In this document: in pieces, positions 4,580-45,971 of the stretch
Numbering within the stretch: the stretch's first letter is position 1
Layout: each line of letters starts with the position of its first letter
Origin: Parabacteroides faecis
GTDB taxonomy: Bacteria > Bacteroidota > Bacteroidia > Bacteroidales > Tannerellaceae
Direction of reading: 5' to 3'
DNA: 64,000 nt
Assembly: GCF_014647375.1 (NCBI RefSeq)
Contig: NZ_BMPB01000001.1
Span: forward strand, 496,001-560,000
The notes under the pieces: model-generated
The model's input: the letters and a program-made list of their open reading frames with translations, nothing else
Databases searched by the model: none
What the model was told of the DNA's origin: nothing
Translations under genes and position numbers: made by a program

Positions 4580-7048
4580 CTATTCCCTTATACTTTCCTT
4601 ATTTCCCAATGCCTTAAATTCCACATCGACAGAGGGGGCTTTGGGGGAAGAGAAGTCGCATTGTACCGTCACATTATTTTTCCCTTTATTCCAAGAGGTC
4701 GTTCCAGAAACATCAAAACGCTTACGCGGTTGCCAGAAAGCATCGCAAACATAAACCGACGTGCCATCGCAATACAGCTTATCTCCCGCTTTCAGCAGCT
4801 CCTGTATTTGGATCGGAGCGCATCCTTCCACCAGTATTTGCATGTTTGCTATTTGAGCAGAAACGTCTTCACCGGCTTTAACCACCGCATAGAATTGCAC
4901 CGGTTGTTTCTCATACGGATTGTCGAAAGTAAATTTACTTAACAAAGGTTCTCCCGTTTGTACGGAACGATACTTGTGGATATTATCCCCTTTCAAGGTT
5001 ACTTCATACAGGTTCCAAGCCTTATCGCTCGCCTTTTCCAAATGGAATTCGTTTTTAGGATTCTTCATCTTCTCTCTTTGTGCAGCTGTTAACAAATGGT
5101 TGTTGCGCACTTTCTGCCATTCACGAATGGCCTCAAAAAGGCGGCTCTTAAATCCGCTCTGTTCGATGCTTTCGTCTACACGCAATAAATAGCCGGCATC
5201 AAAAGCGGCACTACGTGCCTGGATCCATTCAATATCTTCCGGCCGATAAGTCTGTTCCAATTTAAACCAACCCAACATGCCCGGCATCAGGTTACGTTCG
5301 AAATAACGCTGGTTTTCCAAACGGTAATTGACCTGGCTTTCACGCAGATTGTCGTACCAAGGTTCTCCCCAGTTCATGAAAGAATAGATATGCCACCAAT
5401 AATGGAACGGTGATGAGCCACAAGAGATAATACCTTTCTGATCCAGGTCGTCAAACCATTGTTTCAGGAACCTGGAAGCCCCATATAAACCATGTCCCGT
5501 AGGTGACCCACCGTAATAACCGTCGAAGTCCATCAATCCGACTCCCGTTTCATTACATACTTCAGCCAAACGTTTTGCAAAAACATCACTCAAATGAATA
5601 TCCGGGAAAAGACCGCTATAACAATTATTCAGCAGCTTATCGATCTTTTCACCCGTTTTATGAGCCGTTGGTTTCGTTCCGAACTGTCCGCGAGTGCAAT
5701 CCAACAATTTATAAGGTTTATCCGATGTCACCTCCCGATACGACACAATCTCTGTCCCAATCTTTGCCGAATGCGTTTCACCCAAATAGGTAAAAAATTC
5801 CGGTGATTCAATTTCTATATCCTTATCAGTAGCACTGATCTCTTTTGTTAAAACAGAACTTCCTGAAATGGCCAGGCTATCACTAGGCACGGGAGAGACA
5901 TACGGGTCGTGCGTAGAAGTAAACATCGTCAGTGTATGTACGCCGATTTCAATGCCACGAGCTTTCGCTTTGTCGGTAAATGCTTTAATTTGCTCTGCTC
6001 CCTCCGGAAAACGAGAGGTGTGTAAATCAAAATGTCCCCAGCTTTTGAATAGGTCCCCGATATGAACCAAATTGAAGTTACAAGAATCGGCATAATTCAA
6101 TGCATTATCCAACGAACGACCCTCATATAACATATAAGCCGGATTCCGGAGTTTCCGTTTTTTGATCCACTCTCCGTTCATCATCGGATGTGGCAATCCT
6201 TCCTGCACCTCGATCTTCCCTATGACATCAACCGCTTCCGAAGAGGGTGCGGCAAACAAGGCAATAGAACTTCCTACGAAATCCTGATCCAAAGCCGTCA
6301 CCGTCTGTCTTCTTCCTATATAATCTATCACTTTTTCTTTTCGCCAATCACGTGCGAAAAATTGAATATCACTACCATACGGACGTGCTACAGCCGCATT
6401 CCCCCTGATCATACGTACATATTCGGGCATATCTCCTTCTTCATTCACATTGATGTCGTACGTTTGCTGTCCGATCTTATCTTTCAAATCGTCGGGCACC
6501 TCTTGTCCCGGCAGCGAATCGATGTAACAACCGCCTGTAGCATCATCGCCCAAATGAGGTCGTCCTTCTGTCGTGTTGATACCGAGTGCCTGTACTCCAA
6601 CGGCAAACACGGTATCGTGTACCACTCCCACCGTCTCTCCTATATATTGAGATATATCGGTTGCATAAGGCCCCCAGGCAATAGCTTCAATCTGATCACG
6701 ATTACTTAACGAAACCAATGACAAACGGATATATCCGTCTTTTATCTCTTTGGAAACGACCGCTTCCGATTGGTTGGCAAAGGTCAGTATCCATTTATCT
6801 GCTTCGGTTTTCAAGCCAGTAGGCAGGATATACTCTTTCCCGTCATAGAGACTCAACACAGGAGAGGAACCCTCTTTTGCCAAGTAGTTCACACCGGTTC
6901 GGTTGTCTGCCACTTGACGGATAAACCCTTTTCCATCTACACTGAATGTGGCATACTGAGTCGATAGTTCATCGACATATGATTGATTGCATGCGCATAG
7001 CATTAGAAATGCTACTACATAAATACTGCTAATTTTTCCCAATCTCAT
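4580..7048 (-). CDS. Secreted lipoprotein, predicted TIM-barrel glycoside hydrolase of unrecognised family (PUL 1)
   Basis: An 822-aa lipoprotein; the signal peptide ends at the lipobox LCAC near residue 19. Residues about 30-280 look like a beta-sandwich. A probable (beta/alpha)8 barrel runs from about 300 to 650, interrupted by a small beta insertion at about 385-470. Conserved acidic residues D507 and D509 in LMDFDGYYGG sit where a retaining glycosidase could carry its nucleophile. It is a paralogue of the 733-aa protein encoded at 10116-12317, sharing the motif CYxGxxPD and the D-x-D-G site, but it has an additional C-terminal beta domain of about 140 residues. It is the last gene of PUL 1, and its TAG stop directly abuts an Rpn remnant in the same frame. 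I cannot name the family or substrate. Confidence 0.75.
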   Translation of the reverse strand: MRLGKISSIYVVAFLMLCACNQSYVDELSTQYATFSVDGKGFIRQVADNRTGVNYLAKEGSSPVLSLYDGKEYILPTGLKTEADKWILTFANQSEAVVSKEIKDGYIRLSLVSLSNRDQIEAIAWGPYATDISQYIGETVGVVHDTVFAVGVQALGINTTEGRPHLGDDATGGCYIDSLPGQEVPDDLKDKIGQQTYDINVNEEGDMPEYVRMIRGNAAVARPYGSDIQFFARDWRKEKVIDYIGRRQTVTALDQDFVGSSIALFAAPSSEAVDVIGKIEVQEGLPHPMMNGEWIKKRKLRNPAYMLYEGRSLDNALNYADSCNFNLVHIGDLFKSWGHFDLHTSRFPEGAEQIKAFTDKAKARGIEIGVHTLTMFTSTHDPYVSPVPSDSLAISGSSVLTKEISATDKDIEIESPEFFTYLGETHSAKIGTEIVSYREVTSDKPYKLLDCTRGQFGTKPTAHKTGEKIDKLLNNCYSGLFPDIHLSDVFAKRLAEVCNETGVGLMDFDGYYGGSPTGHGLYGASRFLKQWFDDLDQKGIISCGSSPFHYWWHIYSFMNWGEPWYDNLRESQVNYRLENQRYFERNLMPGMLGWFKLEQTYRPEDIEWIQARSAAFDAGYLLRVDESIEQSGFKSRLFEAIREWQKVRNNHLLTAAQREKMKNPKNEFHLEKASDKAWNLYEVTLKGDNIHKYRSVQTGEPLLSKFTFDNPYEKQPVQFYAVVKAGEDVSAQIANMQILVEGCAPIQIQELLKAGDKLYCDGTSVYVCDAFWQPRKRFDVSGTTSWNKGKNNVTVQCDFSSPKAPSVDVEFKALGNKESIRE

Positions 7049-7177
7049 TGTTTACAGCTTATTTATCTGATTTTCCTATTTATACTCATTTTTCACAAAC
7101 AAAAATAATGCTTACTGATAAGCCATAAAATAGCAAATAATTGTCTATTCCATGGATTATTATTGTTTCTACTGTAG

Positions 7178-10072
7178 TCAGTTTTCAGATGAGACAGGGC
7201 AAATCTTATATTTGTAATAGTGCGGTTTGTGTTCAAAATGAACTTGGTTGGTTATAGGCGCTTTGTTAACCACCGTCATACTATTTCCATCCTTATCCAC
7301 CGCTTCTATATCTACACCTAATGCTGAAAATCCAAGTAGAGACAAATTGAAATCAACCTCCTCTAAATCTCTCAGAGGGATAATTTCCCAACCAAACTTT
7401 TCTTTCTTCAACATATAAGAGCCCTTACCACCAAGTTCTCCCTTTTCTACTTCCCCATACGTATCGATATAAAATAAATGATCGGAATAAACCTTGTCAA
7501 GTAATTTACCCGTTGATGAGGCAGGGTTTGTAGAAGAAACAGAAAACAAACGACTTCCAGGCAAAACAGCCAAAGTTCCATATTTAGGCAATGAATAGTC
7601 GCAATCATTCTCTTTAACTCCCCACGGCTGATCGGAAAAGTTGGCATAAATCTTTAAACCACTATTATATTCAACCTGAATACAAGGAGATTTTAATAAA
7701 TCTTTTTTGATTGCATCTGAAGATGATACATAAGATTTGCCATCAAAATACCGGATACTTTTCACCGGAATCATCGAATAGCTATTTTGGAATGGTTGCA
7801 AGAAAGCATATCTACGAACCGCATCGAATCCCTCTGACAAAATACCAATATTACCGAAAGCGTAGGCATAAGCAACATAGGCCTCGTTAGATACATTAGA
7901 CATTCCGTCCATTTCCAACGGATTAATCTTCAATAATTGAAAATCAGGGAATATAGGTAAACTATGATTCATATGTGAATAATTCCCATCTAACAATCCT
8001 GCATAGAACCAATGTGTACCACCTTCTGAATAAACAGGACCTTGGTAGGCACGGCGTTCGTTCATCAAAGTCATACCAATATATTCAAATACAGTACGAA
8101 ATTTTCCTGCTCCAGGAGTACGATAATCGTAATCCACCCGATCCATAGGAGAAATACAAGTCTCTACATCGCAATAAGAGAAGTTGGTCCCAAATGTCTT
8201 ATGTATTTGTGGAGCCAAAATGGCCTGTTGTTCCCAACCTATAGTTACTTTATTAGCATAGCATCTACACCAAGCAGGTCCCCAACCATAATCTTTGTGG
8301 CTAATACGTACCCAATCTTCATTCCACAGAGCATTTACAGGGGCAAAATCCATGTAATTTGAGTAAAAACCAATCCTCCAATCTTGTCCTTGTACAAAAC
8401 GGACATATTCTTTCAGACGCTCTATTCCCAGATCAGGATTAGGTATCGTTCGAAACGTATAACTTTCTCCATCGGCACGCCAAAAATCTTCGTGATAGCG
8501 AATACTAACTTTTTCTACACCTTTAGAACGTAAATCGGTCACGAACTTTCCTAATTTAGGAAGATCACTTCCACCGTTGATCGCCCACAAACGATCTACC
8601 TGATTAGAACGCATTGGAGAAGCCGGGTTATCAATCGTCGGGAATACTTCGTGTACATCAGGTGATACGTTAATGAAAAGACGTTCACGTAAGGGATTAC
8701 GCTTTTTGTTATTCAACGGATAATATTTTACTCCGCCATTGTAAGTGGCTTCACCCTCTTTGATACCCTGTTCTCCACCATAATACATGGAAGCATTGGT
8801 ATAATACCAATCAAACATTGTCAAATAGAACAGATTGTCAGCATACAGTATGCTGGGAGCATCAGCCGTATAGGAATCATTGGCAAAAGGGTTATACACC
8901 AAGAAAGGGACCCCCACCAATTTACCATCCGACACGTTACCTGTTGTGCCTAAGCTGATCTCTTCCACTTTCCCATCCGCTGCTTTTTCTTCAATCGTCC
9001 AAATCAAAGATTTCTGCTTGATCGTATAAGAACAATCAAAGCGTTGGCTCAACCCCTTTCCTACTGCTTTATAACGAATGAACAAAGTATCGTTTTCTAG
9101 TCTCTTATCCATAACTATCCACTCTGCTTCTGTTCGTTTTTCAAAAAGGATCTTAGCGTTGGCATTCACCTTTTTCTCTTGCCCGTCACACAAAAGTGTC
9201 ACGCCGCCTATCGGATAGGCCGGGTCTACTTGATACATCAGCTTAGCATCTTTCCCTTCGTATGAGAAAAGGAATTTCTCGTCTTGTTGCTCCACACGAT
9301 TACTAAATCCGGTCGTCTTATTCATCGGTAAGATCGTCTCTTCACGAAGCGGAAAAGGCAATCTCTCCGGGAACGGCTTAAACTTCATCGGCTTCAAAAC
9401 TTCTTGATACCCATAGATAGGGCCCAAGAAAATATTGTTCTCCACATCCGGTTTTGTGCCATTCCCTTTAAACTCCAATCCGATGAATGTAATCGGTCGG
9501 GCAATACTATCATTCAATTTGATATGGTTCAAAAACCAATACTTGTAATTCATATTCCGCCATAACCATTCTTGCATGAACGGAATTGTTATCTCCCGGC
9601 CTTTGGCATCCCGGATAACGGCATAATGGGTCATGGCTTCTCCACTGTTCTCCCATAACCAATGGTTTCCATAATTCCAAAAGTTGATGCAATCCCACTC
9701 TTTCTCAAACTTGTACGGTTTGATGAGCTCTACACGAAATCCGGCTTTTGCCTGCTTAGTCTTGTAAACAACTTTTCCACTGTAATCACCTATTACCCGT
9801 TGCTTTTTAGTTCGATATAATGTGACTTCGGATTGATTTGCCCGAACCTGCCACTGCGTACAATCATCAAAAGTAAACAGTGGCTCTCTGGCTTCTGTAC
9901 GCCCTTCCATTTCATAAGGTTTACTCCCGATGCTTTTTTGCTTCGGATCTTGATTCATTCCTCGGATTGCCTCTCCATATTCCAATCCGTTTGTCTCTTG
10001 TGCTTTTCCTTGTTGGATATTCAGAGCCAAACATAGCAACACACATGCGCGTAATAATTTATGTTTTAACAT
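7178..10072 (-). CDS. Large secreted predicted glycoside hydrolase of unrecognised family (PUL 1)
   Basis: A secreted protein of about 964 aa. The frame is open to 10102, but the start at 10072 (MLKHKLLRACVLLCLALN) places a normal signal peptide, cleaved after GKA, at the N-terminus. Residues about 60-250 resemble a jelly-roll domain rich in Trp and Tyr, the middle a beta-sandwich, and residues about 500-760 a probable TIM barrel. Candidate catalytic acids lie in SYCDVETC and in YSEGGTHWFYAGLLDGNY. Cleavage of a complex glycan outside the cytoplasm is the most plausible role given the SusC/SusD genes upstream. It lies between the two paralogous barrel proteins, 43 bases from one and 129 from the other. 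I do not recognise a CAZy family. Confidence 0.72.
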   Translation of the reverse strand: MLKHKLLRACVLLCLALNIQQGKAQETNGLEYGEAIRGMNQDPKQKSIGSKPYEMEGRTEAREPLFTFDDCTQWQVRANQSEVTLYRTKKQRVIGDYSGKVVYKTKQAKAGFRVELIKPYKFEKEWDCINFWNYGNHWLWENSGEAMTHYAVIRDAKGREITIPFMQEWLWRNMNYKYWFLNHIKLNDSIARPITFIGLEFKGNGTKPDVENNIFLGPIYGYQEVLKPMKFKPFPERLPFPLREETILPMNKTTGFSNRVEQQDEKFLFSYEGKDAKLMYQVDPAYPIGGVTLLCDGQEKKVNANAKILFEKRTEAEWIVMDKRLENDTLFIRYKAVGKGLSQRFDCSYTIKQKSLIWTIEEKAADGKVEEISLGTTGNVSDGKLVGVPFLVYNPFANDSYTADAPSILYADNLFYLTMFDWYYTNASMYYGGEQGIKEGEATYNGGVKYYPLNNKKRNPLRERLFINVSPDVHEVFPTIDNPASPMRSNQVDRLWAINGGSDLPKLGKFVTDLRSKGVEKVSIRYHEDFWRADGESYTFRTIPNPDLGIERLKEYVRFVQGQDWRIGFYSNYMDFAPVNALWNEDWVRISHKDYGWGPAWCRCYANKVTIGWEQQAILAPQIHKTFGTNFSYCDVETCISPMDRVDYDYRTPGAGKFRTVFEYIGMTLMNERRAYQGPVYSEGGTHWFYAGLLDGNYSHMNHSLPIFPDFQLLKINPLEMDGMSNVSNEAYVAYAYAFGNIGILSEGFDAVRRYAFLQPFQNSYSMIPVKSIRYFDGKSYVSSSDAIKKDLLKSPCIQVEYNSGLKIYANFSDQPWGVKENDCDYSLPKYGTLAVLPGSRLFSVSSTNPASSTGKLLDKVYSDHLFYIDTYGEVEKGELGGKGSYMLKKEKFGWEIIPLRDLEEVDFNLSLLGFSALGVDIEAVDKDGNSMTVVNKAPITNQVHFEHKPHYYKYKICPVSSEN

Positions 10073-17865: not shown

Positions 17866-18855
17866 TCATTTTATAGGTTTATAAATCTGTATCTGATCCC
17901 CCTGAATTTTATAATCCAGTTTACGGGTATCTTTCAATAAGGTAAGTATCTGATTTATTTTAGCTGTTTCCTTGAAACGGCAAGTAAATAATTCAGTATT
18001 GAGTTCGTGATCCTTCACTGTGATATGAACATTGAAACGACGTTCCAGATCGACTACAATATCGATCAGTTGTTTATTAATATAGGCAGCTTCACCCACC
18101 GTCCATGATTTGACCAAAGAAGCATTAACAGTTTTATTGACTACCAGGCCGCCATCTTTGGAATAGGTAACCTGCTCATTCGGTCTTAGAGTCACTTTAT
18201 GTTCATTGTCATTTGTGGCGACTTCCACTTTTCCTTCTGCCAACGTTATGGAAGACGGTTCTTCATTGTACACCCTCATATTAAACTTCGTGCCCAATAC
18301 TTTTACCTGAAGTAAATCAGCATGTACGACAAACGGCACTTTTTCATTATGTGCAACCTCAAAAAAGCCTTCGCCTTCAAGCTTAACGTCTCGCTTCCTT
18401 GATGAAAACTGAGCCGGATAAGTCAATTTACTGTGGGAGTTCAGCCAGACTTTCGTTCCGTCGGACAGGGTCAGAGAAGCTCTTTGGCCATTGGGAACTT
18501 CCACCATATTCATTGCAGAAGGCTTCTCTTTTACCAGAAAATATAAGTTGGTACTTAATAGTCCGACCAGTAGGATAGCAGCTGCATATTTAATCCATGA
18601 TAAATAAACAGGACGTTTCCGGATGGTTTTTACTTCCTTATCCTTCTCCTGCAACCCCGACATGAAACGCTCGTAAGCCATTTCAATCTCCTGCTGGTCT
18701 GAAAAACGTAGCTGGTCTTTCAAACTCCAGATACGCTCCATCTCAAACAGCCAATCAGCATTTGCCTGATCAGAAGCAATCCATTGATCGACCACCTTTA
18801 TTTCTTCCGAAGTACATCGGTGGATTAAAAATCGTATTAGTATTTCTTCATTCAT
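17866..18855 (-). CDS. FecR-family anti-sigma factor (PUL 1)
   Basis: A 329-aa single-pass inner-membrane regulator. Residues 1-82 are the cytoplasmic sigma-binding part, 88-108 the membrane helix, 115-215 the FecR domain (LTLSDGTKVWLNSHSKLTYP) and about 255-327 the DUF4974 domain. It should receive the signal from the STN domain of the PUL 1 SusC, whose gene follows 134 bases downstream. It lies 78 bases after the ECF sigma gene. Confidence 0.95.
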   Translation of the reverse strand: MNEEILIRFLIHRCTSEEIKVVDQWIASDQANADWLFEMERIWSLKDQLRFSDQQEIEMAYERFMSGLQEKDKEVKTIRKRPVYLSWIKYAAAILLVGLLSTNLYFLVKEKPSAMNMVEVPNGQRASLTLSDGTKVWLNSHSKLTYPAQFSSRKRDVKLEGEGFFEVAHNEKVPFVVHADLLQVKVLGTKFNMRVYNEEPSSITLAEGKVEVATNDNEHKVTLRPNEQVTYSKDGGLVVNKTVNASLVKSWTVGEAAYINKQLIDIVVDLERRFNVHITVKDHELNTELFTCRFKETAKINQILTLLKDTRKLDYKIQGDQIQIYKPIK

Positions 18856-18933: not shown

Positions 18934-19518
18934 TTAATTTATAATCTGGCAAAAAGCTATATATAGTATCAGTAAATCTTTTAAATCTTCCCGCAGGAAA
19001 AGTACCGCATTACGGACATGAACTGCGACTGTACGTGGTGATATTCCAAGTTTATCTGCAATTTCTTTGTGGGGTAAATCTTCATAGTAGCATAAACGGA
19101 ACACTTCTGCCGCTTTAGGTGACAATTTTTTCACGGAAGCTTCGATCTGTTCACGAATATCCCAATCAATCACTTGTTTCAATACATCATTTGTATCGGT
19201 CCGGTCATTCAAAAAAGCAATACGTGCTTCGGCTATTCGTATTTTAGCATTATACTCTTCTATAACCTTTTGGTGTTTCAGATAATTCAAACAACGGTTC
19301 TGAAGGGATTTAAAGAGATAGGATTGTACGCTATTTACATCAATTTGTTGTTTTTGTTCCCAATAGAATATAAAGATATCCTGCACCAGATCTTTCGCTG
19401 CCTGTTCATCCACAAAACGACAAGCCAACGACAGCAGTTTCGGATAAAAGTGAACAAAGAATCTTTTAAAAGCTTCCTGATCCCCTTCCTGTATTCCATG
19501 TATATCAATAGGCCCCAA
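18934..19518 (-). CDS. ECF-type RNA polymerase sigma-70 factor (PUL 1), TTG start
   Basis: A 194-aa ECF sigma factor. Region 2 shows as KDLVQDIFIFYWEQKQQI and region 4 as LPHKEIADKLGISPRTVAVHVRNA. The only in-frame initiator after the upstream TAA stop is TTG at 19516-19518, giving MGPIDIHGIQEGDQEAF; no in-frame ATG lies near the expected N-terminus. A TTG start may keep synthesis low. The upstream DNA holds a candidate invertible promoter (19565-19775) that would drive this gene only after inversion. The partner is the FecR just downstream. Confidence 0.93.
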   Translation of the reverse strand: MGPIDIHGIQEGDQEAFKRFFVHFYPKLLSLACRFVDEQAAKDLVQDIFIFYWEQKQQIDVNSVQSYLFKSLQNRCLNYLKHQKVIEEYNAKIRIAEARIAFLNDRTDTNDVLKQVIDWDIREQIEASVKKLSPKAAEVFRLCYYEDLPHKEIADKLGISPRTVAVHVRNAVLFLREDLKDLLILYIAFCQIIN

Positions 19519-19712
19519 GTTGTAATAGTTTTAATTAACAATAATATCTATCAGTGGTAATACCAAGTTCTTGAGGAACTACGTCCTTATTTTGCGATAA
19601 AACGTTTAAAATCAAGAGTGTAAACAAAACTACACAATTATCTTCAAATATTCATTTTTAAATATTATTTCTCTGTTTATAACAGCTCAATGGATTTGTC
19701 CTATTAAATTAA

Positions 19713-19731
19713 CTATTTATAGTATAAATAG
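19713..19731. repeat. Palindrome next to the -7 box of inverton 1
   Basis: CTATTTATA (19713-19721) and TATAAATAG (19723-19731) are perfect inverted repeats around one G, ending two bases before the TATATTTG box at 19734. The location fits an operator or activator site that travels with the promoter when it flips. Confidence 0.5.
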
Positions 19732-19733
19732 AT

Positions 19734-19741
19734 TATATTTG
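19734..19741 (+). promoter_or_regulatory. -7 box (TATATTTG) inside inverton 1
   Basis: An exact TAnnTTTG match on the plus strand, directed away from PUL 1 in this assembly. No good -33 TTTG exists at 19-21 bases; the nearest is at 19695-19698. Transcripts from it would meet the hairpin at 19842-19899. Confidence 0.55.
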
Positions 19742-19841
19742 CGGTGGGAGAAATATATTAGTTCCTCAAGAACTTCATACCAATACCTAAAACGGGGGAA
19801 ATAACCGGAATCCTTTAATTTATATAGCCTGGAGAAACAGG

Positions 19842-32107: not shown

Positions 32108-32533
32108 TTATATTTGGATTCCTTCATTGCGTTTGATCTCGATATCCGGATTGAACTTCTTCAGCAGCTTTACAAACTCTTTTTCATTCTGCGGAGATAT
32201 CAGCATCCACATTTTACCTTCTTTCCAGATCACGATCCGGTCCAGAGATAAAGAATAACTGAAAACGGGAAGAATAGACGGTTGCAACGCCTCTATATCA
32301 GCTATGGCGATTTCTTTTTTAGGGAAAAAACCACAGCGGAGCAACAACATTCCGTCAGTTGTAACTACATAGTAGGTATTGAAAAATACATGCAATGTCA
32401 ACGCACTGGCAACTAATGTACTAACAATTGCCGCAACATTCTGATGCAGTACGGATACGACACACAGGATTGCCAACACAATAATCAACAGATGGTACCA
32501 CCATCCGATCTTAGATTTAAAGACTCTATCCAT
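32108..32533 (-). CDS. Small membrane protein with bacterial PH-like domain
   Basis: A 141-aa protein with two N-terminal hydrophobic segments (about residues 12-28 and 33-50) and a C-terminal soluble part that resembles a bacterial PH-like domain (YYVVTTDGMLLLRCGFF, then IAIADIEALQP). It is immediately downstream of a 128-aa membrane protein of similar layout, with a single base between them, so the two are probably translated together. The function is unknown. Confidence 0.7.
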   Translation of the reverse strand: MDRVFKSKIGWWYHLLIIVLAILCVVSVLHQNVAAIVSTLVASALTLHVFFNTYYVVTTDGMLLLRCGFFPKKEIAIADIEALQPSILPVFSYSLSLDRIVIWKEGKMWMLISPQNEKEFVKLLKKFNPDIEIKRNEGIQI

Positions 32534-32534
32534 T

Positions 32535-32921
32535 TCACGAATTTTCGCGCAAGATAGTCATTTCTTCATTTACTTGTTGTAAAGCAGCCACAAAACCTTC
32601 GGTATCGACCGGATGGACGGTGTTGGTATACTCCTTGTCTTTATAAGGCTTGCCATAATAGATTACTACGCTACCCGATTGCTTGATAAATAACTTCTCT
32701 ATATCTTTTACCGGGATTGCCACAAAGTTACCCTGTGTCAGATAACCCTTGTCAATCTTATAAGGGTATAATGCAGGCACAATAAAAACAAGGATCAGAA
32801 TATAGGCTGCCGGCTGCCGTATCTCATTCAAATACAGTAATCCAAAAAGGATAAGCATACTAACTGCTATCGCAACATGTTTTGGAGTCACTAGTCTCTT
32901 TCTAAACGTCTGCTTTTCCAT
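32535..32921 (-). CDS. Small membrane protein of unknown function, PH-like
   Basis: A 128-aa protein with two hydrophobic helices (about residues 15-30 and 37-52) followed by a soluble beta-rich part (IDKGYLTQGNFVAIPVKDIE). It looks like a diverged copy of the downstream 141-aa protein. In the present orientation of inverton 2 a minus-strand promoter about 790 bases upstream could read toward it. Confidence 0.65.
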   Translation of the reverse strand: MEKQTFRKRLVTPKHVAIAVSMLILFGLLYLNEIRQPAAYILILVFIVPALYPYKIDKGYLTQGNFVAIPVKDIEKLFIKQSGSVVIYYGKPYKDKEYTNTVHPVDTEGFVAALQQVNEEMTILRENS

Positions 32922-33683: not shown

Positions 33684-33919
33684 TAGTTCTGATAGAACTA
33701 TTTTTATTATCGGCACAAATATATAATATATTTTTTAATATTTCATCTTTTAACGCAAGATTTTATCAACAAAGGCTAGTGATTGTATAATTTATTTAAA
33801 ATAAGCACTGTATATATAATATAAATGATATCAACCCGGATAATTCCTCTATAACATAGAACATATAGGCTCATCATTCATACAAAGATTTATAAATAGA
33901 ATAAGTTCTATCAGAACTT
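33684..33919. promoter_or_regulatory. Candidate invertible promoter (inverton 2) upstream of PUL 2 susC
   Basis: AGTTCTGATAGAACT (33685-33699) and its exact reverse complement AGTTCTATCAGAACT (33904-33918) flank 204 AT-rich bases. A TATATTTG box on the minus strand (33716-33723) ends 16 bases from the left repeat and points away from susC at 34031. Inversion would move it to about 33880-33887 on the plus strand, leaving a leader of about 137 bases. The outer halves AGTTC...GAACT are identical to those of inverton 1; only the central five bases differ. Confidence 0.78.
33716..33723 (-). promoter_or_regulatory. -7 box (TATATTTG) inside inverton 2
   Basis: An exact TAnnTTTG match on the minus strand, identical to the box in inverton 1 and at nearly the same distance from its repeat. 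The -33 element is unclear. Confidence 0.55.
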
Positions 33920-34030
33920 ATATAGAGGAGAAGTATGAAATGAGCTGCGCAAGACGCGTAAACAACTGATTAACTTAGGGATACCTTAGAGTTAAAAGCT
34001 TTCAATTTAAACAAAATTAAAGACACTATT

Positions 34031-37000
34031 ATGCTGAAAAAAACACAAACTGTTAGCTTTCTGCTGCTATCATTAGCCCTCTCTTTCGGAGGAAACGTGT
34101 ATGCTTCTGAAGTGGGTACTGAAACTTCAATCACGCAACAGGCAGAAAAAATCACAGGGACCATTGAGGATGAGTTCGGTCCCGTAACCGGCGCTTCCGT
34201 GGTAGTAAAAGGAACAACGAACGGAACCGTCACAGACATGAACGGTAAGTTCAGTTTATCAAACGTGAAAAAAGGAGACGTCATCGTAATCTCTTTTATC
34301 GGTTATGTTACTCAAGAAGTAAAATACACCGGTCAGGATGCCATCAGAGTACAGTTAAAGGAAGACTCACAAACACTCGACGAGGTGGTTGTAGTCGGTT
34401 TCGGTACACAAAAGAAAGTCAATTTGACCGGTGCCGTAAGCATGGTCAATGCGGAAGTGATCGAATCGAGACCCGTTCAGAATGTATCTCAAGCCCTGCA
34501 GGGTGTTGTTCCCGGTTTGAACTTTACGGTGAACAGTAACGGAGGAACACTGGATAACACGATGAATGTAAACATTCGTGGTGCCGGTACGATCGGTGAC
34601 GGTTCCGGTTCATCCCCTTTGGTCCTGATCGACGGTATCGAAGGTAATATGAACACGATCAACCCGGCCGATATCGAATCTATCTCCGTATTGAAAGATG
34701 CCGCCTCTTCTTCGATCTACGGTTCACGCGCCTCTTTCGGTGTGATCCTGATCAAGACAAAAGGGGGACAATCCGGAAAAGTAAATGTAAACTATACGGG
34801 TAACGTCCGCTTCACGGATGCACTGCAGATACCGGAAATGATGGATTCATATCAATTTGCCCAGTATTTCAATGCAGCCGCAGCTAATGCCGGACAAAGT
34901 GCCGTATTCAGTGCCGAGGTGATGCAGCGTATCCAGGATTACCAGGCTGGAAAAATATCGACTGTCTCGACACCCAACGCACAAGGTAAATGGAATATGT
35001 ATTCAGGAGCGAATGCCAACACGAACTGGTTTAAAGAAGTATACCGCGACTGGGTACCTTCGCATGAACACAATCTGAGTGTCAGCGGCGGATCAGAGAA
35101 AGTCACTTATCGTGTCAGCGGTAGTTTCCTGAATCAGCAGGGTCTGATACGTTTCGGGGAAGACCGTTTCAAACGTTACACCATGGACGCAAAGATCTCG
35201 GCAAAGTTGACAGATTGGGCAACGTTGAATTACACCAACAAATGGACACGCGAGGACTACAGCCGTCCTACTTATATGACTGGCTTGTTCTTCCATAATA
35301 TCGCCCGCCGCTGGCCGACTTGTCCGGTATATGATGACAACGGTCACCTGACCGACGGTATGGAATTGATCCAGATGCAGGATGGTGGTAAGCAGACACA
35401 CCAGAAAAACTACTATACACAACAGATAGGATTGAAGTTCGAACCGATCAAAGACTGGACGATCAATGTGGATGGCAATATGCGTACGCATACCAACAAC
35501 CAACATTACGCCGTACTACCGGTTTCCGCCTATTACGCGGACGGATCTCCGTATTATGTCAGCTGGGATGGCGGCGCTTCTTATTCACCGGGGGCCAGCC
35601 GTGTATATGAATACCGGTATACTGAAGATTATTTTACAACAAATATCTATACCGACTATTCTAAAACGATCAATGACCATTATTTCAAAGTGATGGCCGG
35701 TTTCAACGCGGAATTAACGAAATACGATACGACTTCAGGACGAGGCGACAAGCTGATCTCAGGAGAAACTCCTTACCTGAGCCAGACAACATCGGAACAG
35801 AAAGTGACTGGCGGCCGGGCGGAAAACTCAGTAGCAGGCTTCTTCGGACGTATCAATTACAACTATAAAGATCGCTATATGGTCGAGTTGAACGGTCGTT
35901 ACGATGGTTCTTCCCGTTTCATCGGCGATAAACGCTGGGGATTCTTCCCTTCCGTATCCGGAGGATGGAACATTGCCCGTGAAGAGTTTTTCAGTGATTG
36001 GTCGAATCTTTTCAGCACCCTGAAACTGAGAGCATCCTGGGGACAGTTGGGAAATACGGACACGAAAGATGCCTGGTATCCTTTCTATCAGACAATGCCG
36101 ACAGGGACTGCTACAGGTACGTGGCTGGTTGACGGAACGAAACCGAACGTAGCCGGACTGCCGGGTATCGTCAGTTCTTTAAAAACATGGGAAACGATCG
36201 AATCGTGGGATGTCGGTCTGGATTGGGCTTTGCTCGGCAACCGTTTAACAGGTTCATTCGACTACTTTACACGTTACACATACGACATGATCGGTCCGGC
36301 TCCCGAACTACCGGGCGTACTGGGTGCTTCCCCTCCGAAAATCAATAACTCGGATATGAAGTCGTACGGTTTTGAACTGGAACTGTCCTGGAGAGACCGT
36401 GTCGGTGATTTCAACTACGGAGCAAAATTCGTATTGTCTGACGCCAAACAGAAGATCACCAGATACCCGAATGAGTCGAGATCGTTGGATATCGCTCACT
36501 ACAACGGGAAAATGCTGAACGAGATCTGGGGATACACTACTGTAGGCATCGCCCAGTCGCAGGCAGAAATGGACGCACACCTTGCCAATAACAAGCCTAG
36601 TTGGGGAGCCAGCTGGAGTGCAGGTGATATCATGTATGCCGACCTGAACGGAGACGGCGTTATCAACAGCGGTGCCAATACGGTAGACGAACCGGGCGAC
36701 CGTAAGGTCATCGGTAACAGCACACCTCGTTATAACTTCGGTTTAACGCTGGATGCTTCCTGGAAAGGTCTCGACTTTTCCGTATTCTTCCAGGGAATAG
36801 CCAAACGTGATTACTGGTTAAGCGGCCCGTATTTCTGGGGTGCTTCAGGCGGAATGTGGCAATCGGCCGGGTTCACAGAACACTGGGACTTCTGGCGCGG
36901 AGCCGACGATCCTCTGGGAGCGAACCTGAACGCTTATTACCCGCGGGCTAGTTTTGACGGAGCTAAAAACCAATATGTACAGAGCGGTTACCTGCAGAAC

Positions 37001-37231
37001 GCAGCATATATCCGTATGAAAAACATCCAGGTAGGCTATACATTGCCGAAACAATGGGTTTCAAAGGCGGGCATGTCTTCTGTCCGTGTCTACATCTCCG
37101 GCGACAACCTGCTTACGATATCTGACATTACCGGCGTATTCGACCCGGAAACTCTCGGCGGAGATTATGGAGACGGCAAGCTGTATCCATTGTGTAAAAC
37201 TATATCTGTTGGTTTAAATGTTAATTTCTAA
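34031..37231 (+). CDS. SusC/RagA-family TonB-dependent transporter (PUL 2)
   Basis: Outer-membrane glycan importer of 1066 aa. The signal peptide ends near NVYA (residue 25). There is no STN domain: the carboxypeptidase-like domain (ITGTIEDEFGPVTGASVVVKG) starts soon after cleavage, followed by the TonB box region (LDEVVVVGFGTQKKVN), the plug (LVLIDGIEGNMNTINPADIE, VLKDAASSSIYGSRASFGV) and the barrel. Lack of STN fits the absence of a sigma/FecR pair here, so expression must be controlled otherwise, most likely by the invertible promoter directly upstream. It is paired with the SusD 11 bases downstream. Confidence 0.97.
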   Translation: MLKKTQTVSFLLLSLALSFGGNVYASEVGTETSITQQAEKITGTIEDEFGPVTGASVVVKGTTNGTVTDMNGKFSLSNVKKGDVIVISFIGYVTQEVKYTGQDAIRVQLKEDSQTLDEVVVVGFGTQKKVNLTGAVSMVNAEVIESRPVQNVSQALQGVVPGLNFTVNSNGGTLDNTMNVNIRGAGTIGDGSGSSPLVLIDGIEGNMNTINPADIESISVLKDAASSSIYGSRASFGVILIKTKGGQSGKVNVNYTGNVRFTDALQIPEMMDSYQFAQYFNAAAANAGQSAVFSAEVMQRIQDYQAGKISTVSTPNAQGKWNMYSGANANTNWFKEVYRDWVPSHEHNLSVSGGSEKVTYRVSGSFLNQQGLIRFGEDRFKRYTMDAKISAKLTDWATLNYTNKWTREDYSRPTYMTGLFFHNIARRWPTCPVYDDNGHLTDGMELIQMQDGGKQTHQKNYYTQQIGLKFEPIKDWTINVDGNMRTHTNNQHYAVLPVSAYYADGSPYYVSWDGGASYSPGASRVYEYRYTEDYFTTNIYTDYSKTINDHYFKVMAGFNAELTKYDTTSGRGDKLISGETPYLSQTTSEQKVTGGRAENSVAGFFGRINYNYKDRYMVELNGRYDGSSRFIGDKRWGFFPSVSGGWNIAREEFFSDWSNLFSTLKLRASWGQLGNTDTKDAWYPFYQTMPTGTATGTWLVDGTKPNVAGLPGIVSSLKTWETIESWDVGLDWALLGNRLTGSFDYFTRYTYDMIGPAPELPGVLGASPPKINNSDMKSYGFELELSWRDRVGDFNYGAKFVLSDAKQKITRYPNESRSLDIAHYNGKMLNEIWGYTTVGIAQSQAEMDAHLANNKPSWGASWSAGDIMYADLNGDGVINSGANTVDEPGDRKVIGNSTPRYNFGLTLDASWKGLDFSVFFQGIAKRDYWLSGPYFWGASGGMWQSAGFTEHWDFWRGADDPLGANLNAYYPRASFDGAKNQYVQSGYLQNAAYIRMKNIQVGYTLPKQWVSKAGMSSVRVYISGDNLLTISDITGVFDPETLGGDYGDGKLYPLCKTISVGLNVNF

Positions 37232-37242
37232 ATTATCCGATC

Positions 37243-39267
37243 ATGAAACTGAATTTTAAAAGCATATATATCTATTCGATTGTAGCGGCAGCCGGCCTGT
37301 CGATGCCGTCGTGCAATGATTTTCTGGACAGAGAGCCGATCTCCAGTATTACTCCCCAGCAATACTTCAATTCGGCAGAAGAACTGGGAGCCTATGCGAT
37401 CAACTATTATAATTCGATCATCCCCAGTTATGCAGATGCCTATGCAGCCGGTCCGTTGAATGCGGACAGAAACACGGACAATATGGTTGTAGGGGAAGCC
37501 AATACGACTTATTTTGCTTCCAACCGCTGGTTGGTACCCTCTTCCGGCAGCCCTGATTTCTCGCTGATACGTGCCATGAACTATTTCCTGGAACAAGTTT
37601 TACCGAAATATGAGGCGGGTAGTATCTCCGGTACGGAGGAAAATATCCGGCATTATATCGGGGAGATTTATTTTATGCGTGCCTCGGTTTACTTCGACCG
37701 TTTAAGATCGTATGGCGATTATCCTATCATAACGACCGTACCGGTCGATGAAACGTCGGAACTGGTAGAGTTGAGCAAACGTTCCCCGCGTAATGAAGTG
37801 GCGCGTTTCATCCTGGAAGACCTCGACCGCGCTATCTCCATGCTGAAAAGCGGTACTGCTTTCAACAAGGTACGTATCGGAAAGGAACTAGCTTATTTAG
37901 TGAAATCACGGGTAGCCTTATATGAAGGTACATTTGAAAAATATCACAAAGGGACACCCCGTGTTCCGGGAGAACAAGGTTGGCCGGGTGCCGACAAAGC
38001 TTACAACTCAGGGAAGAGCTTCAATATCGACGGTGAAGTCAGTTTCTTCCTGACGGAAGCGATGAACGCTGCGAAAGAAGTAGCCGACAACCATGAACTG
38101 ACACAGAACACGATGGTGATGAATCCGGCAATCAACCAGATCTACGGATGGAATCCTTATTTTGAAATGTTCTCGATGCCGACTCCGGGCACGTTGGATG
38201 AAGTGATACTCTGGCGTGATTTCGATGCCGACCTGAGTGTGACCCACGGCTTTATGGCTTACATACAGCAGGGAGGAAACAACGGTATGACGAAAAGTTA
38301 CGTCGACGCTTTCCTGATGGAGAACGGGCTGCCTATCTATGCCGCCAATTCAGGCTATAAGGGAGACATAACGATCGACCAGCAGAAAGAAGACCGCGAC
38401 GGCCGTCTGCAGTTATTCTTATTCGGTGAAACGACTGTGCTCGGAAATGAAGATTCGCTTCAATATTATAACGCACCGGAGGTAGTCGGTCTGACAGAAC
38501 ATCGCGACCGTACCGGTTTCCGTCAGCGTAAATCCTTCTGTTACGATTTTGCACAGATACGTAACGGGGTACGGGGTACGAACGGTATCGTAACCGCACG
38601 TGCTGCCGAAGCCTATCTGAACTATCTGGAAGCATCTTACCTGAAGAACGGATCGATCGACGCTACAGCGGCCTCTTATTGGAGAAAGTTGCGTGAGCGG
38701 GCGGGCATCGATGCCGATTTCACGAAAACGATCGCTGCGACCGACCTTTCCAAAGAACCGGACTGGGGCGTTTACTCCGGCTCACAGAAAGTAGATCCTA
38801 CCCTTTATAATATCCGCCGTGAACGCCGTTGCGAATTTATCGGAGAAGGAAGAAGATGGGATGACCTGATCCGCTGGCGTTCGTTCGATGCATTGTTCTC
38901 GGAAAACATGGGGCCGTACGTTCCCGAAGGTGTCAACTTCTGGACAGAGATGCACAAGAACACGGCTTACCTGAAGAGGAACGATGCCGGTGAACTGACG
39001 AATGAATCTGCCTTGATCGAACAGAAAGACGGACTTTCTTCTGCGAACATTTCAAACCGGAATGACAGCAAATATATACGTCCGTACCGTGTAGTAAAAG
39101 AAAACAACGAGGTATGGAACGGATATAACTGGATGAAAGCCTACTATCTGAGTCCTTATTCCATCCTGGAAATGACTCTGGCTTCTCCGGATTCCAGATT
39201 GGAGACATCCAACCTGTATCAGAATCCGTACTGGCCGACAGTAGCCAGCGCATCCGCACTGGAATAA
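37243..39267 (+). CDS. SusD/RagB-family glycan-binding lipoprotein (PUL 2)
   Basis: A 674-aa surface lipoprotein with the lipobox LSMPSC near residue 24. Family marks are the N-terminal SITPQQYFNSAEELGAYAIN, the helical repeats (IYFMRASVYFDRLRSYGDYP) and the C-terminal segment YNIRRERRCEFIGEGRRWDD. It is longer than most SusD proteins (about 500-600 aa), with extra loops in the second half. It forms the lid of the SusC encoded 11 bases upstream. A terminator-like hairpin follows its stop. Confidence 0.95.
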   Translation: MKLNFKSIYIYSIVAAAGLSMPSCNDFLDREPISSITPQQYFNSAEELGAYAINYYNSIIPSYADAYAAGPLNADRNTDNMVVGEANTTYFASNRWLVPSSGSPDFSLIRAMNYFLEQVLPKYEAGSISGTEENIRHYIGEIYFMRASVYFDRLRSYGDYPIITTVPVDETSELVELSKRSPRNEVARFILEDLDRAISMLKSGTAFNKVRIGKELAYLVKSRVALYEGTFEKYHKGTPRVPGEQGWPGADKAYNSGKSFNIDGEVSFFLTEAMNAAKEVADNHELTQNTMVMNPAINQIYGWNPYFEMFSMPTPGTLDEVILWRDFDADLSVTHGFMAYIQQGGNNGMTKSYVDAFLMENGLPIYAANSGYKGDITIDQQKEDRDGRLQLFLFGETTVLGNEDSLQYYNAPEVVGLTEHRDRTGFRQRKSFCYDFAQIRNGVRGTNGIVTARAAEAYLNYLEASYLKNGSIDATAASYWRKLRERAGIDADFTKTIAATDLSKEPDWGVYSGSQKVDPTLYNIRRERRCEFIGEGRRWDDLIRWRSFDALFSENMGPYVPEGVNFWTEMHKNTAYLKRNDAGELTNESALIEQKDGLSSANISNRNDSKYIRPYRVVKENNEVWNGYNWMKAYYLSPYSILEMTLASPDSRLETSNLYQNPYWPTVASASALE

Positions 39268-39375: not shown

Positions 39376-41064
39376 ATGAAACATCTGGCCTATTTATCTT
39401 TCTGCATTTTACTTATGGCATGTGCAAACACATCGGATACGAAAGATACGATCAGTTTCGCACAGGTAGATCCTTTCCTGAAAGTATTCAGGGAATCAAA
39501 CTTCTTTCCGGAATACAACGAGACGGAAGAAGTGGCGGCAGGCGAACATGCGACATTTCAGTTCGTTGTCCGTAGTGCTGCAACATTGAAAGACCTGGCG
39601 ATAGAGGTGTCTCCTTTCACGAATGAACAAGGGGTTACTTTACCGGCTGTGCGTTCAGGCTTTGTCGATTTTGTACGGGTAGGCCGCCAAACTCCTGACC
39701 GGGCAAAAGATGCGATCACCTCCTTATCCTATTACTATCCGGACCCGATCATCGAAAAAGACCGGTGGAATGTGGAACGGGACATGGCACAGCCTATCTG
39801 GCTGACGGCAAACATCCCTTCAGATGCCGCACCCGGCGACTATAAAGCGACGTTCCGGTTAACAGGCAAAGCTGGCGGCAAACTCTTCCGCCAGGAGAAA
39901 GAGATACAGATCAAAGTATATCCGGTCGTCATGGAAGAACCTTCTTTATGGGTGACCAACTGGTTCGGTACTTCACCTGAGAAAATGAAGATATTTAACG
40001 GTGGAAAAGAGGTAGAACTTTACTCCCCCGTTTACTGGGATATGATCAAGGAATTAGCCCTGAAACTGAAAGAATGCTATTCCAATGTCATCCTGATCTC
40101 CCCCTTGCAATACGTTGAATTTTCAGAGAAAGACGGGATATATACATTCGATTACACCCAGTTCGACAAGATGGTCTCTATATTCAAAGAAGCGGGTGCT
40201 CTAAAGATGATCGAAGGCGGACATATAGCGGGACGCACCGGCAACTGGGACAGCCAGTTCGAACCCTATGTTCCGGAATATAAAGACGGCAAAAAGACCC
40301 GGGTACAATACCCGATGTCTTCTCCCCGGGCACAAAACTTCTACAAACAGTTCATCCCTTCATTAACGGCTCATCTGAAAGAGCAGCAAATGGGAGAAAT
40401 CTATGCCCAGCACATTGCGGACGAACCGATCAGCTCCAATATAAAAAGTTATGTCGAGATTGCCCGGTTTATCAAACAACTGGCACCGGAGATCAAGATC
40501 ATAGAGGCCTGTCATTCGCACGACCTGGAAAATACTCTGGATATCTGGGTACCGCAGTTGAACTTCTATAAAGACGGATATGATTTTTACCGCGAACGAC
40601 AGAAGCAGGGCGACGAAGTATGGTTTTACACCTGCCTGGCTCCGCAAGGAGACTTTGCCAACCGCTTCCTGGAGCAACCGCTTATAAAGACCCGGTTAAT
40701 CCACTGGCTGAACTTCAAATATGGTGCAACAGGGTATCTGCACTGGGGATTCAATCAATGGTTTGCTAATAACGATCCCTATAAAGAAACAACCCTGATG
40801 AACACGGAAAGCGGAAACACGTTACCCGGAGGGGATAGCTGGATCGTCTATCCGGACAATGGCAAGTTATACGGTTCTATCCGTCTGGAAGCCATGCGCG
40901 ACGGCATTGCCGATTATACCTTACTGAAGATGCTGGAACGGAAAAACCCGGAACTGGCTAAAGAACTGTGCCGCCTGACCGTCTTTCACTGGACGCTCTA
41001 CGATACGGAAGGCGGTCATTTCCGGAAGACAAGAAGAGAAATACTGGAAGCGTTGTCGGAATAA
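39376..41064 (+). CDS. GH123/DUF4091-like glycoside hydrolase lipoprotein (PUL 2)
   Basis: A 562-aa lipoprotein whose signal peptide ends at LLMAC (residue 16). An N-terminal beta-sandwich (about 25-190) precedes a TIM barrel, and the C-terminus has the DUF4091 signature (GATGYLHWGFNQW, then GSIRLEAMRDGIADYTLLKM). D349-E350 in HIADEPISS match the Asp-Glu pair that GH123 beta-N-acetylgalactosaminidases use for substrate-assisted catalysis. The likely role is release of beta-linked GalNAc or a related N-acetyl sugar from host-type glycans taken up by this SusC/SusD; the specificity is inferred. It is the only enzyme in PUL 2. Confidence 0.87.
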   Translation: MKHLAYLSFCILLMACANTSDTKDTISFAQVDPFLKVFRESNFFPEYNETEEVAAGEHATFQFVVRSAATLKDLAIEVSPFTNEQGVTLPAVRSGFVDFVRVGRQTPDRAKDAITSLSYYYPDPIIEKDRWNVERDMAQPIWLTANIPSDAAPGDYKATFRLTGKAGGKLFRQEKEIQIKVYPVVMEEPSLWVTNWFGTSPEKMKIFNGGKEVELYSPVYWDMIKELALKLKECYSNVILISPLQYVEFSEKDGIYTFDYTQFDKMVSIFKEAGALKMIEGGHIAGRTGNWDSQFEPYVPEYKDGKKTRVQYPMSSPRAQNFYKQFIPSLTAHLKEQQMGEIYAQHIADEPISSNIKSYVEIARFIKQLAPEIKIIEACHSHDLENTLDIWVPQLNFYKDGYDFYRERQKQGDEVWFYTCLAPQGDFANRFLEQPLIKTRLIHWLNFKYGATGYLHWGFNQWFANNDPYKETTLMNTESGNTLPGGDSWIVYPDNGKLYGSIRLEAMRDGIADYTLLKMLERKNPELAKELCRLTVFHWTLYDTEGGHFRKTRREILEALSE

Positions 41065-45026: not shown

Positions 45027-45971
45027 ATGGATAAAGAGATATTACAAAGATACGTAGAAGGAAATGTCACCCCGGAAGAAATCATAGCCGTCGTTGACTG
45101 GTTAGATGCAGACGAAAATAACGTCCGGGAGTTTATGGCATTACATAAACTGAACGACATCTCCCTACTGAATCAACCGGATAAGCAGGTCGATATCCAA
45201 AAGGTAAAAAGAACTATCTCTTTCCGAAAGATAGGTTATGAACTGGCCAAAATAGCAGCAATACTGATCATATTCTGGGGAGGAACAAAATTATTCGAAA
45301 CAAACAACATTACCGAAGAAAGTATTGCGACGTACCAGACACTATACGTACCTGCCGGACAACGCGCCGAATTGATTTTGCCGGATAGTACACGAGTCTG
45401 GCTCAATGCCCATAGTAAACTTGTATACCCTGTCAGTTTCGGTAAAGGGACCCGCCAGGTGGAATTAAATGGAGAAGCCTATTTTGATGTTATCCATAAT
45501 GAGAAACAACCTTTTATTGTGAAAACTCAGCAAATGGACATACAGGTGTTAGGTACAGAATTTAATGTGGCCTCCTATTCCAACTCTTCTGATTTTGAGG
45601 TATCTTTATTAAGAGGAAGTATAGAGCTATCTTCACCCAACCTCCCATCCAACTACAGGATGAAGGAGAAAGAACACGTCCAGTTAAAAGACAACAAGTT
45701 AATTATCGATCAAATAGCCGATTATGATTATTTCAGATGGAAGGAAGGACTCATCTGTTTCAATAACGAATCAGTTGCAACAATCATTGAGAAGCTTAAA
45801 CTATACTACGATATTGACATCAAAATTTATAATAAGAGGATCCTAAACAGTCGATATTCCGGTAAATTCAGGACCAAAGATGGTATAGAGCAAGTATTGA
45901 AAGTATTGCAGATAGAACATAAGTTCAGCTATACCAAAAATAGTGATTTGAATCTAATAACTATAAAATAA
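45027..45971 (+). CDS. FecR-family anti-sigma factor (PUL 3)
   Basis: A 314-aa regulator with a membrane helix at about residues 72-88, the FecR core (LPDSTRVWLNAHSKLVYP) and a C-terminal DUF4974 domain (about 240-312). Unlike the other two FecR genes in the window it has no sigma gene directly before it; the only candidate in PUL 3 is at 63295-63843 on the opposite strand, 17 kb away. It should interact with the STN domain of the SusC encoded 133 bases downstream. Confidence 0.94.
   Translation: MDKEILQRYVEGNVTPEEIIAVVDWLDADENNVREFMALHKLNDISLLNQPDKQVDIQKVKRTISFRKIGYELAKIAAILIIFWGGTKLFETNNITEESIATYQTLYVPAGQRAELILPDSTRVWLNAHSKLVYPVSFGKGTRQVELNGEAYFDVIHNEKQPFIVKTQQMDIQVLGTEFNVASYSNSSDFEVSLLRGSIELSSPNLPSNYRMKEKEHVQLKDNKLIIDQIADYDYFRWKEGLICFNNESVATIIEKLKLYYDIDIKIYNKRILNSRYSGKFRTKDGIEQVLKVLQIEHKFSYTKNSDLNLITIK

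Follow-up and report, generated by a model that had tools for sequence, protein, structure and literature searches.

A probable phase-variable promoter segment upstream of a susC-susD-GH123 operon in Parabacteroides faecis

The segment at 33685-33918 of the window (the whole stretch of 64,000 nucleotides of Parabacteroides faecis DNA that was analysed) is very probably a phase-variable promoter switch, flipped in trans by a tyrosine recombinase and captured in its likely OFF state. It precedes the susC gene of PUL 2 and is most likely a further member of the known SusC/SusD class of phase-variable promoters, resembling the Tsr0667-type regions of Bacteroides fragilis. The original prediction had proposed an invertible promoter here, and this was supported by opposite orientations at orthologous susC genes, by inverted site pairs across the genome and by promoter boxes placed near an arm in 11 of 16 pairs. 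The following features were recognized.

33685..33699, plus strand: left inverted-repeat arm AGTTCTGATAGAACT, predicted recombinase site with core TGATA
33700..33903, no strand: predicted invertible interior, 204 bp, 22% G+C; orientation as in P. goldsteinii (L040), where the segment lies opposite to that of a Parabacteroides MAG (L041)
33716..33723, minus strand: TATATTTG box, fitting the Bacteroides -7 consensus TAnnTTTG; points away from susC, predicted OFF
33904..33918, plus strand: right inverted-repeat arm AGTTCTATCAGAACT, reverse complement of the left arm
33919..34030, plus strand: susC leader from the right arm to the start codon, without TAnnTTTG on the plus strand
34031..37231, plus strand: SusC-like TonB-dependent transporter (TIGR04056), STN domain not found; predicted target
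37243..39267, plus strand: SusD-like protein
39376..41064, plus strand: GH123 family glycoside hydrolase, not found beside orthologous susCD in three relatives
19566..19774, no strand: inverton 1, core TTGAG, same repeat class, preceding an ECF sigma gene (18934-19518, minus strand)

PUL 2 consists of the susC, susD and GH123 genes in this list. The two arms are exact reverse complements of 15 bp with 204 bases between them, as had been claimed, and could be extended inward to 24 nt at 88 % when mismatches were allowed. However, the outer ends had been placed at 33684 and 33919, each one base too wide, as the T residues at these two positions are unpaired. Each arm is a near-palindrome in which AGTTC and GAACT half-sites surround an asymmetric core of five bases. 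The segment lies in an AT-rich intergenic region of 1109 bases. Of 1000 dinucleotide shuffles of this region, four contained an exact inverted pair of 15 nt at a distance of up to 600 nt. The TATATTTG box was confirmed on the minus strand, 16 nt from the left arm. The TAnnTTTG motif is the -7 box that was tested by mutation in the BF2766 (Tsr19) system, according to the available sections of PMC4747536, and the Bacteroides promoter consensus combines TTTG at -33 with TANNTTTGY at -7 (PMC8748976, available part). In the window, the -33 TTTG was not evident by eye, with ATG at the place where P. goldsteinii has TTG. Short inverted repeats around a non-coding segment and a promoter motif near one repeat, by which invertons are recognized, were thus both present at 33685-33918, and the occurrence of both orientations in nature was observed across species (see below). 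When the left junction was compared with viral contigs, there were 0 matches. The susC leader of the window contains a GAGGAG stretch and a 9-codon open frame (33925-33969), which by eye are absent from the leaders of L040 and L041.

Tyrosine recombinases invert the DNA between sites whose asymmetric cores match and lie in inverted order, and recombine sites with unlike cores poorly. Recombination at 33685-33918 would invert the segment and not delete it, because its two cores are reverse complements. A tyrosine recombinase would flip these 234 bp in trans, and the box, as the putative promoter of the susC-susD-GH123 operon, would point either away from it (this assembly, likely OFF) or toward it (likely ON).

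The nearest named relatives of this susC (84-85 % identical) were found in P. massiliensis (L039), P. goldsteinii and the Parabacteroides MAG, and a repeat pair of the same class lies about 120-380 bases before susC in all three. The interiors were aligned in both orientations and each alignment was compared with 300 shuffles. The window and P. goldsteinii showed the same orientation (65 vs 44; 0 of 300 shuffles reached 65), P. goldsteinii and the MAG were inverted relative to each other (102 vs 50; 0 of 300 reached 102), and the MAG and P. massiliensis again agreed (67 vs 35; 0 of 300). Direct alignment of the window with the MAG weakly favoured the inverted orientation (50 vs 40; 29 of 300 shuffles reached 50), P. 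goldsteinii against P. massiliensis was also weak (inverted 52 vs 38; 22 of 300), and the window against P. massiliensis gave 41 vs 41 (72 of 300). Since these direct alignments are weak, the statement on the inversion of the window interior runs via P. goldsteinii and the MAG. Relative to susC and its leader, taken as fixed, the box is directed away from susC in the window and in P. goldsteinii and toward it in the MAG and in P. massiliensis, and the box-to-arm distances in the four are 16, 16, 17 and 18 bp. The right flank and susC are collinear while the orthologous interiors lie opposite ways. The cores differ between the four species (TGATA, TGGTA, TAACA and CATTA) and both arms share the core within each; the arms of the MAG differ at one half-site base.

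These data also bear on a static explanation, in which the arms form the hairpins of a terminator or attenuator, or are what remains of a site that has stopped recombining. Each arm is indeed a short palindrome, the left arm together with the following TTTTT folds as RNA (z-score -2.57), and P. goldsteinii has the orientation of the window. However, opposite interiors beside a collinear flank and susC, a core shared by the arms of each species though different between species, and the ordinary fold of the predicted ON leader RNA (z-score -0.09) all argue against it, and we consider a static repeat very improbable. A function of these hairpins in termination or attenuation was dropped as the z-scores were modest at most.

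When eleven window proteins were tested, only those of susC and susD were present at all three loci. The switch accompanies the susCD pair, whereas the surrounding genes, among them GH123, vary. All 39 loci with a susC relative were scanned by the strict pattern, and relaxed pairs upstream of susC were sought in 18 of them and found in five (L039, L040, L041, L044 and L050). The pairs before the related susC of B. fragilis (L044 and L050) had no well-placed box, and the B. fragilis strains Q1F2 and S82 showed the same orientation at the related susC (83 % identity). Thus, this B. fragilis susC gave no evidence of flipping.

The repeats of the window belong to a class found across its genome (G000, 6.66 Mb), in which AGTTC-N5-GAACT was found at 66 sites and the reversed control pattern at one. 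Among the 50 of these 66 sites that were listed, a hand count gave 15 inverted pairs with a distance of 141-592 bp; the cores of the paired copies were reverse complements in all 15, and 14 different cores were seen, with TGAAA common to two loci. Since most pairs of the genome differ in core, recombination between distant pairs would be prevented. A total of 16 pairs from the window and other stretches of G000 was examined (the 15 strict pairs and one relaxed AGTYC pair), which is fewer than the whole set of the genome because 50 of the 66 sites were listed. TAnnTTTG lay 12-22 bp from an arm and pointed at it in the 11 pairs mentioned above, compared with a mean of 0.35 and a maximum of 3 for shuffled interiors (500 rounds), and a well-placed box was absent in five of the 16. 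Thirteen of the 16 pairs precede susC operons (eight directly before susC, four before ECF sigma-FecR-susC and one between two divergent fecR-susC operons); targets were assigned except at L159, at L160 and for the second L163 pair. Eight pairs combine a well-placed box with a known target; the box is directed toward the target in one of them (L164) and away from it in the other seven. Therefore, most of these eight, both window pairs included, are predicted to be OFF in the assembly.

The second window pair is inverton 1, with arms at 19566-19580 and 19760-19774. The geometry at 33685-33918 had been likened to that of inverton 1, and the likeness held: both have AGTTC-N5-GAACT arms and the same TATATTTG box, which is 18 nt from an arm in inverton 1. 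This inverton lies about 50 bases from the start of the ECF sigma reading frame (18934-19518, minus strand), and its box points away from the sigma gene, so that it is predicted to be OFF.

The strict pattern exceeded its control in 17 of the 39 genomes of the genus (hand count), with control counts that varied from 0 to 25. Site-rich relatives were G009 (54 sites vs 2), G038 (46 vs 2) and G013 (45 vs 2). Thus, the enrichment is strong in G000 and a few others and weak or absent in many. The repeat consensus of Tsr0667 was reportedly given by Nakayama-Imaohji in 2009 as AGTYYYN4GDACT, a string that had no match in the papers that were searched. Both window arms fit this consensus. As a genome scan it was dropped, with 96 forward matches vs 54 for the control in G000 and counts at or below the control in many genomes, and the strict AGTTC-N5-GAACT pattern was used because the looser one is less specific.

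At L162 (6040-6610; G000:C10:57039-57609) the site pair lies between two divergent fecR genes with its right arm inside a fecR reading frame (6398-7342), and on inversion two anti-sigma genes could exchange their 5' ends. At L163 (6112-6160; G000:C10:84211-84259) the right arm occurs twice in the same direction, 34 bases apart, which gives a three-site switch. Contigs of G001 begin or end at class sites (C35:103882-103896, C4:1-15, C142:1-15, C77:6-20 and C143:4-18; some by the looser pattern), and a Bacteroides MAG contig likewise begins or ends at one (L043:2-16). Contig ends at sites are the pattern expected if a population holds both orientations.

In agreement with the claim that PUL 2 lacks a regulator of its own, Pfam recognized none, whether sigma, FecR or another type, among its genes (neighbours scanned in part), and the sigma and FecR genes at 18934-19518, 17866-18855 and 45027-45971 all lie outside it (Pfam scan of 20 window reading frames). 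The STN domain, by which transporters of this kind pass signals to FecR, was found by Pfam in seven of eight SusC proteins of sigma/FecR-linked loci with a site (absent in L170; below the curated cut-off in L155, one of the seven). It was found in none of nine SusC proteins encoded directly after a site, including that of the window. These 17 proteins include three from loci with a single strict site (L167, L168 and L170) and two from the divergent locus L162. Because no STN domain was found, the SusC of the window seems to be without the FecR signalling route. Inversion as the main control of PUL 2 fits the STN absence, which is not proof of it.

It was also considered that a fixed promoter or a distant regulator is the main driver of the operon and that inversion merely tunes it. 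Three results speak against this: the plus strand of the leader (33919-34030) contains no TAnnTTTG, no regulator gene was recognized in PUL 2, and no STN domain was found in its SusC. We regard this explanation as improbable. Even less probable is a two-way switch, in which the OFF orientation is a second working state with the genes 32535-32921 and 32108-32533 on the left as its targets. In the assembly the box points left, and both genes are on the minus strand. However, the nearest of them starts about 760 bp beyond the arm, the three orthologous loci (19 kb) were found to contain neither, and no collinear match to P. goldsteinii was found more than 14 bases to the left of the arm. On these grounds, the idea that the OFF state serves the leftward genes was dropped.

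For the enzyme that would flip the phase-variable promoter, G000 offers 23 matches to PF00589 and 4 to PF00239 (counted). The best candidate is the tyrosine recombinase L022 (G000:C3:454683-455843). It was matched in 26 of the 39 genomes of the genus, G000 included (E-value no higher than 1e-60), and 25 of these 26 had a single match. Nineteen matches cover most of its length and seven run from about residue 93-104 onward and may be another family. The identity in the three other site-rich genomes was 89-93 %. A B. fragilis relative (L230) is 57 % identical and its gene has a strict site within about 1 kb. Across G001-G006, five of seven genes of L022 relatives had a strict site no more than 7 kb away, with a chance of 3-6 % per genome; as the genomes are related, these five are not independent. 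Among the matches listed, 0 of 36 other recombinase genes had a strict site within this distance.

A susC-like gene adjoins L022 or its relative in all 15 loci that were read, and eight of these have an inverted site pair within about 6 kb (five strict, and three relaxed without shuffle control). In four of the eight, an arm is inside a susC reading frame, as in a shufflon. No site pair was seen beside the recombinase gene in the remaining seven loci, G000, G009, G013 and G038 among them; the G000 contig ends 5 kb from the gene. Since the pair is missing in the group of the window itself, the enzyme would act in trans there. Some genomes depart from the association: G022 (21 sites, control 2) and G010 (11 sites, control 2) have sites and no L022 match at the same E-value, and G018 has the gene and few sites (6, control 14).

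The G000 contig with L022 (L251; G000:C3:453000-460550) ends inside the 5' part of the adjoining susC, which could arise if shufflon-like recombination forked the assembly. In B. fragilis Q1F2 (G039), sites with the core AATTC occur at C1:29283, 508227, 510041, 513533 and 5174751, of which two lie about 1 kb away from recombinase matches, one at C1:30260 (the L022 relative) and one at C1:5173372 (same score).

The same invertible promoter might be served by another invertase, either a tyrosine recombinase paralogue of about 305-330 amino acids (L032 and L034-L037) or an Mpi-type serine invertase. The number of PF00589 and PF00239 matches in G000 leaves room for this, and a relative of L034 with 75-76 % identity occurs in exactly the three most site-rich genomes after G000 (G009, G013 and G038). 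However, common descent of these large genomes could also explain the L034 pattern, the L034 matches in G014 and G015 (25 and 24 sites) are only 30-37 % identical, and the 36 listed genes of such tyrosine recombinases without a strict site within 7 kb also count against it. We consider another invertase unlikely, though less so than the alternatives above. L034-L037 were rejected as the invertase, as no close relative occurs in G014 or G015 despite their 24-25 sites and none of the 36 listed genes is near a site.

With L022 as the candidate invertase, a broader reading is tentatively offered. A single widespread and normally single-copy tyrosine recombinase beside susC/susD might be the master switch for dozens of Parabacteroides SusC operons, which it would reach through near-private 5-bp core addresses set in uniform AGTTC/GAACT half-sites. 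The switch would act at two tiers, directly at susC for transporters without STN and at the ECF sigma gene for transporters with STN, and phase variation could thereby replace or gate nutrient sensing. This reading was graded slightly lower because seven of the 26 recombinase matches are partial and strict sites exceed the control in only 17 of the 39 genomes.

The closest known system is that of Tsr0667, the B. fragilis tyrosine recombinase that inverts SusC/SusD loci (PMC4747536, available text), which is named a shufflon invertase in the accessible part of PMC11852207. As in the Tsr0667 regions, a segment lies between short inverted repeats at susC/susD and one recombinase would serve many loci. 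Unlike there, the genus is another one, and the recombinase is a candidate with 57 % identity to the B. fragilis relative. In the Mpi system (B. fragilis PSA and other capsule promoters), as far as the available descriptions go, a promoter likewise flips between inverted repeats under one global enzyme, but that enzyme is a serine recombinase with capsule targets, whereas susC and sigma genes are the targets here. The B. fragilis regions IVp-I and IVp-II under BF2766 (Tsr19) are similar in that one tyrosine recombinase acts on a local and a distant promoter; they differ in their targets, which are EPS genes and an outer-membrane gene cluster (PMC4747536, same sections). Within the genus of the window, numerous inversion sites were detected in Parabacteroides distasonis from sequencing data (PMC5903667, available part), and inversions across the order are reviewed in PMC12632263 (available part). 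Invertible regions near susC/susD were among the most orientation-divergent between IBD patients and controls (PMC10939037, available part). In the literature searched, which consisted of titles and the beginnings of abstracts, the papers cited above, PMC10994844 and PMC13114119, the AGTTC-N5-GAACT class or its enzyme was not described in Parabacteroides.

Thus, flipping of a susC promoter segment in Parabacteroides is supported by comparison of orthologous loci, beyond the motif, and a testable candidate enzyme is offered for the genome-wide set of switches. If this is true, deletion of one gene would lock many nutrient-receptor genes ON or OFF, with a bearing on phage receptors, on the niches that gut commensals choose and on how the immune system recognizes their SusC proteins.
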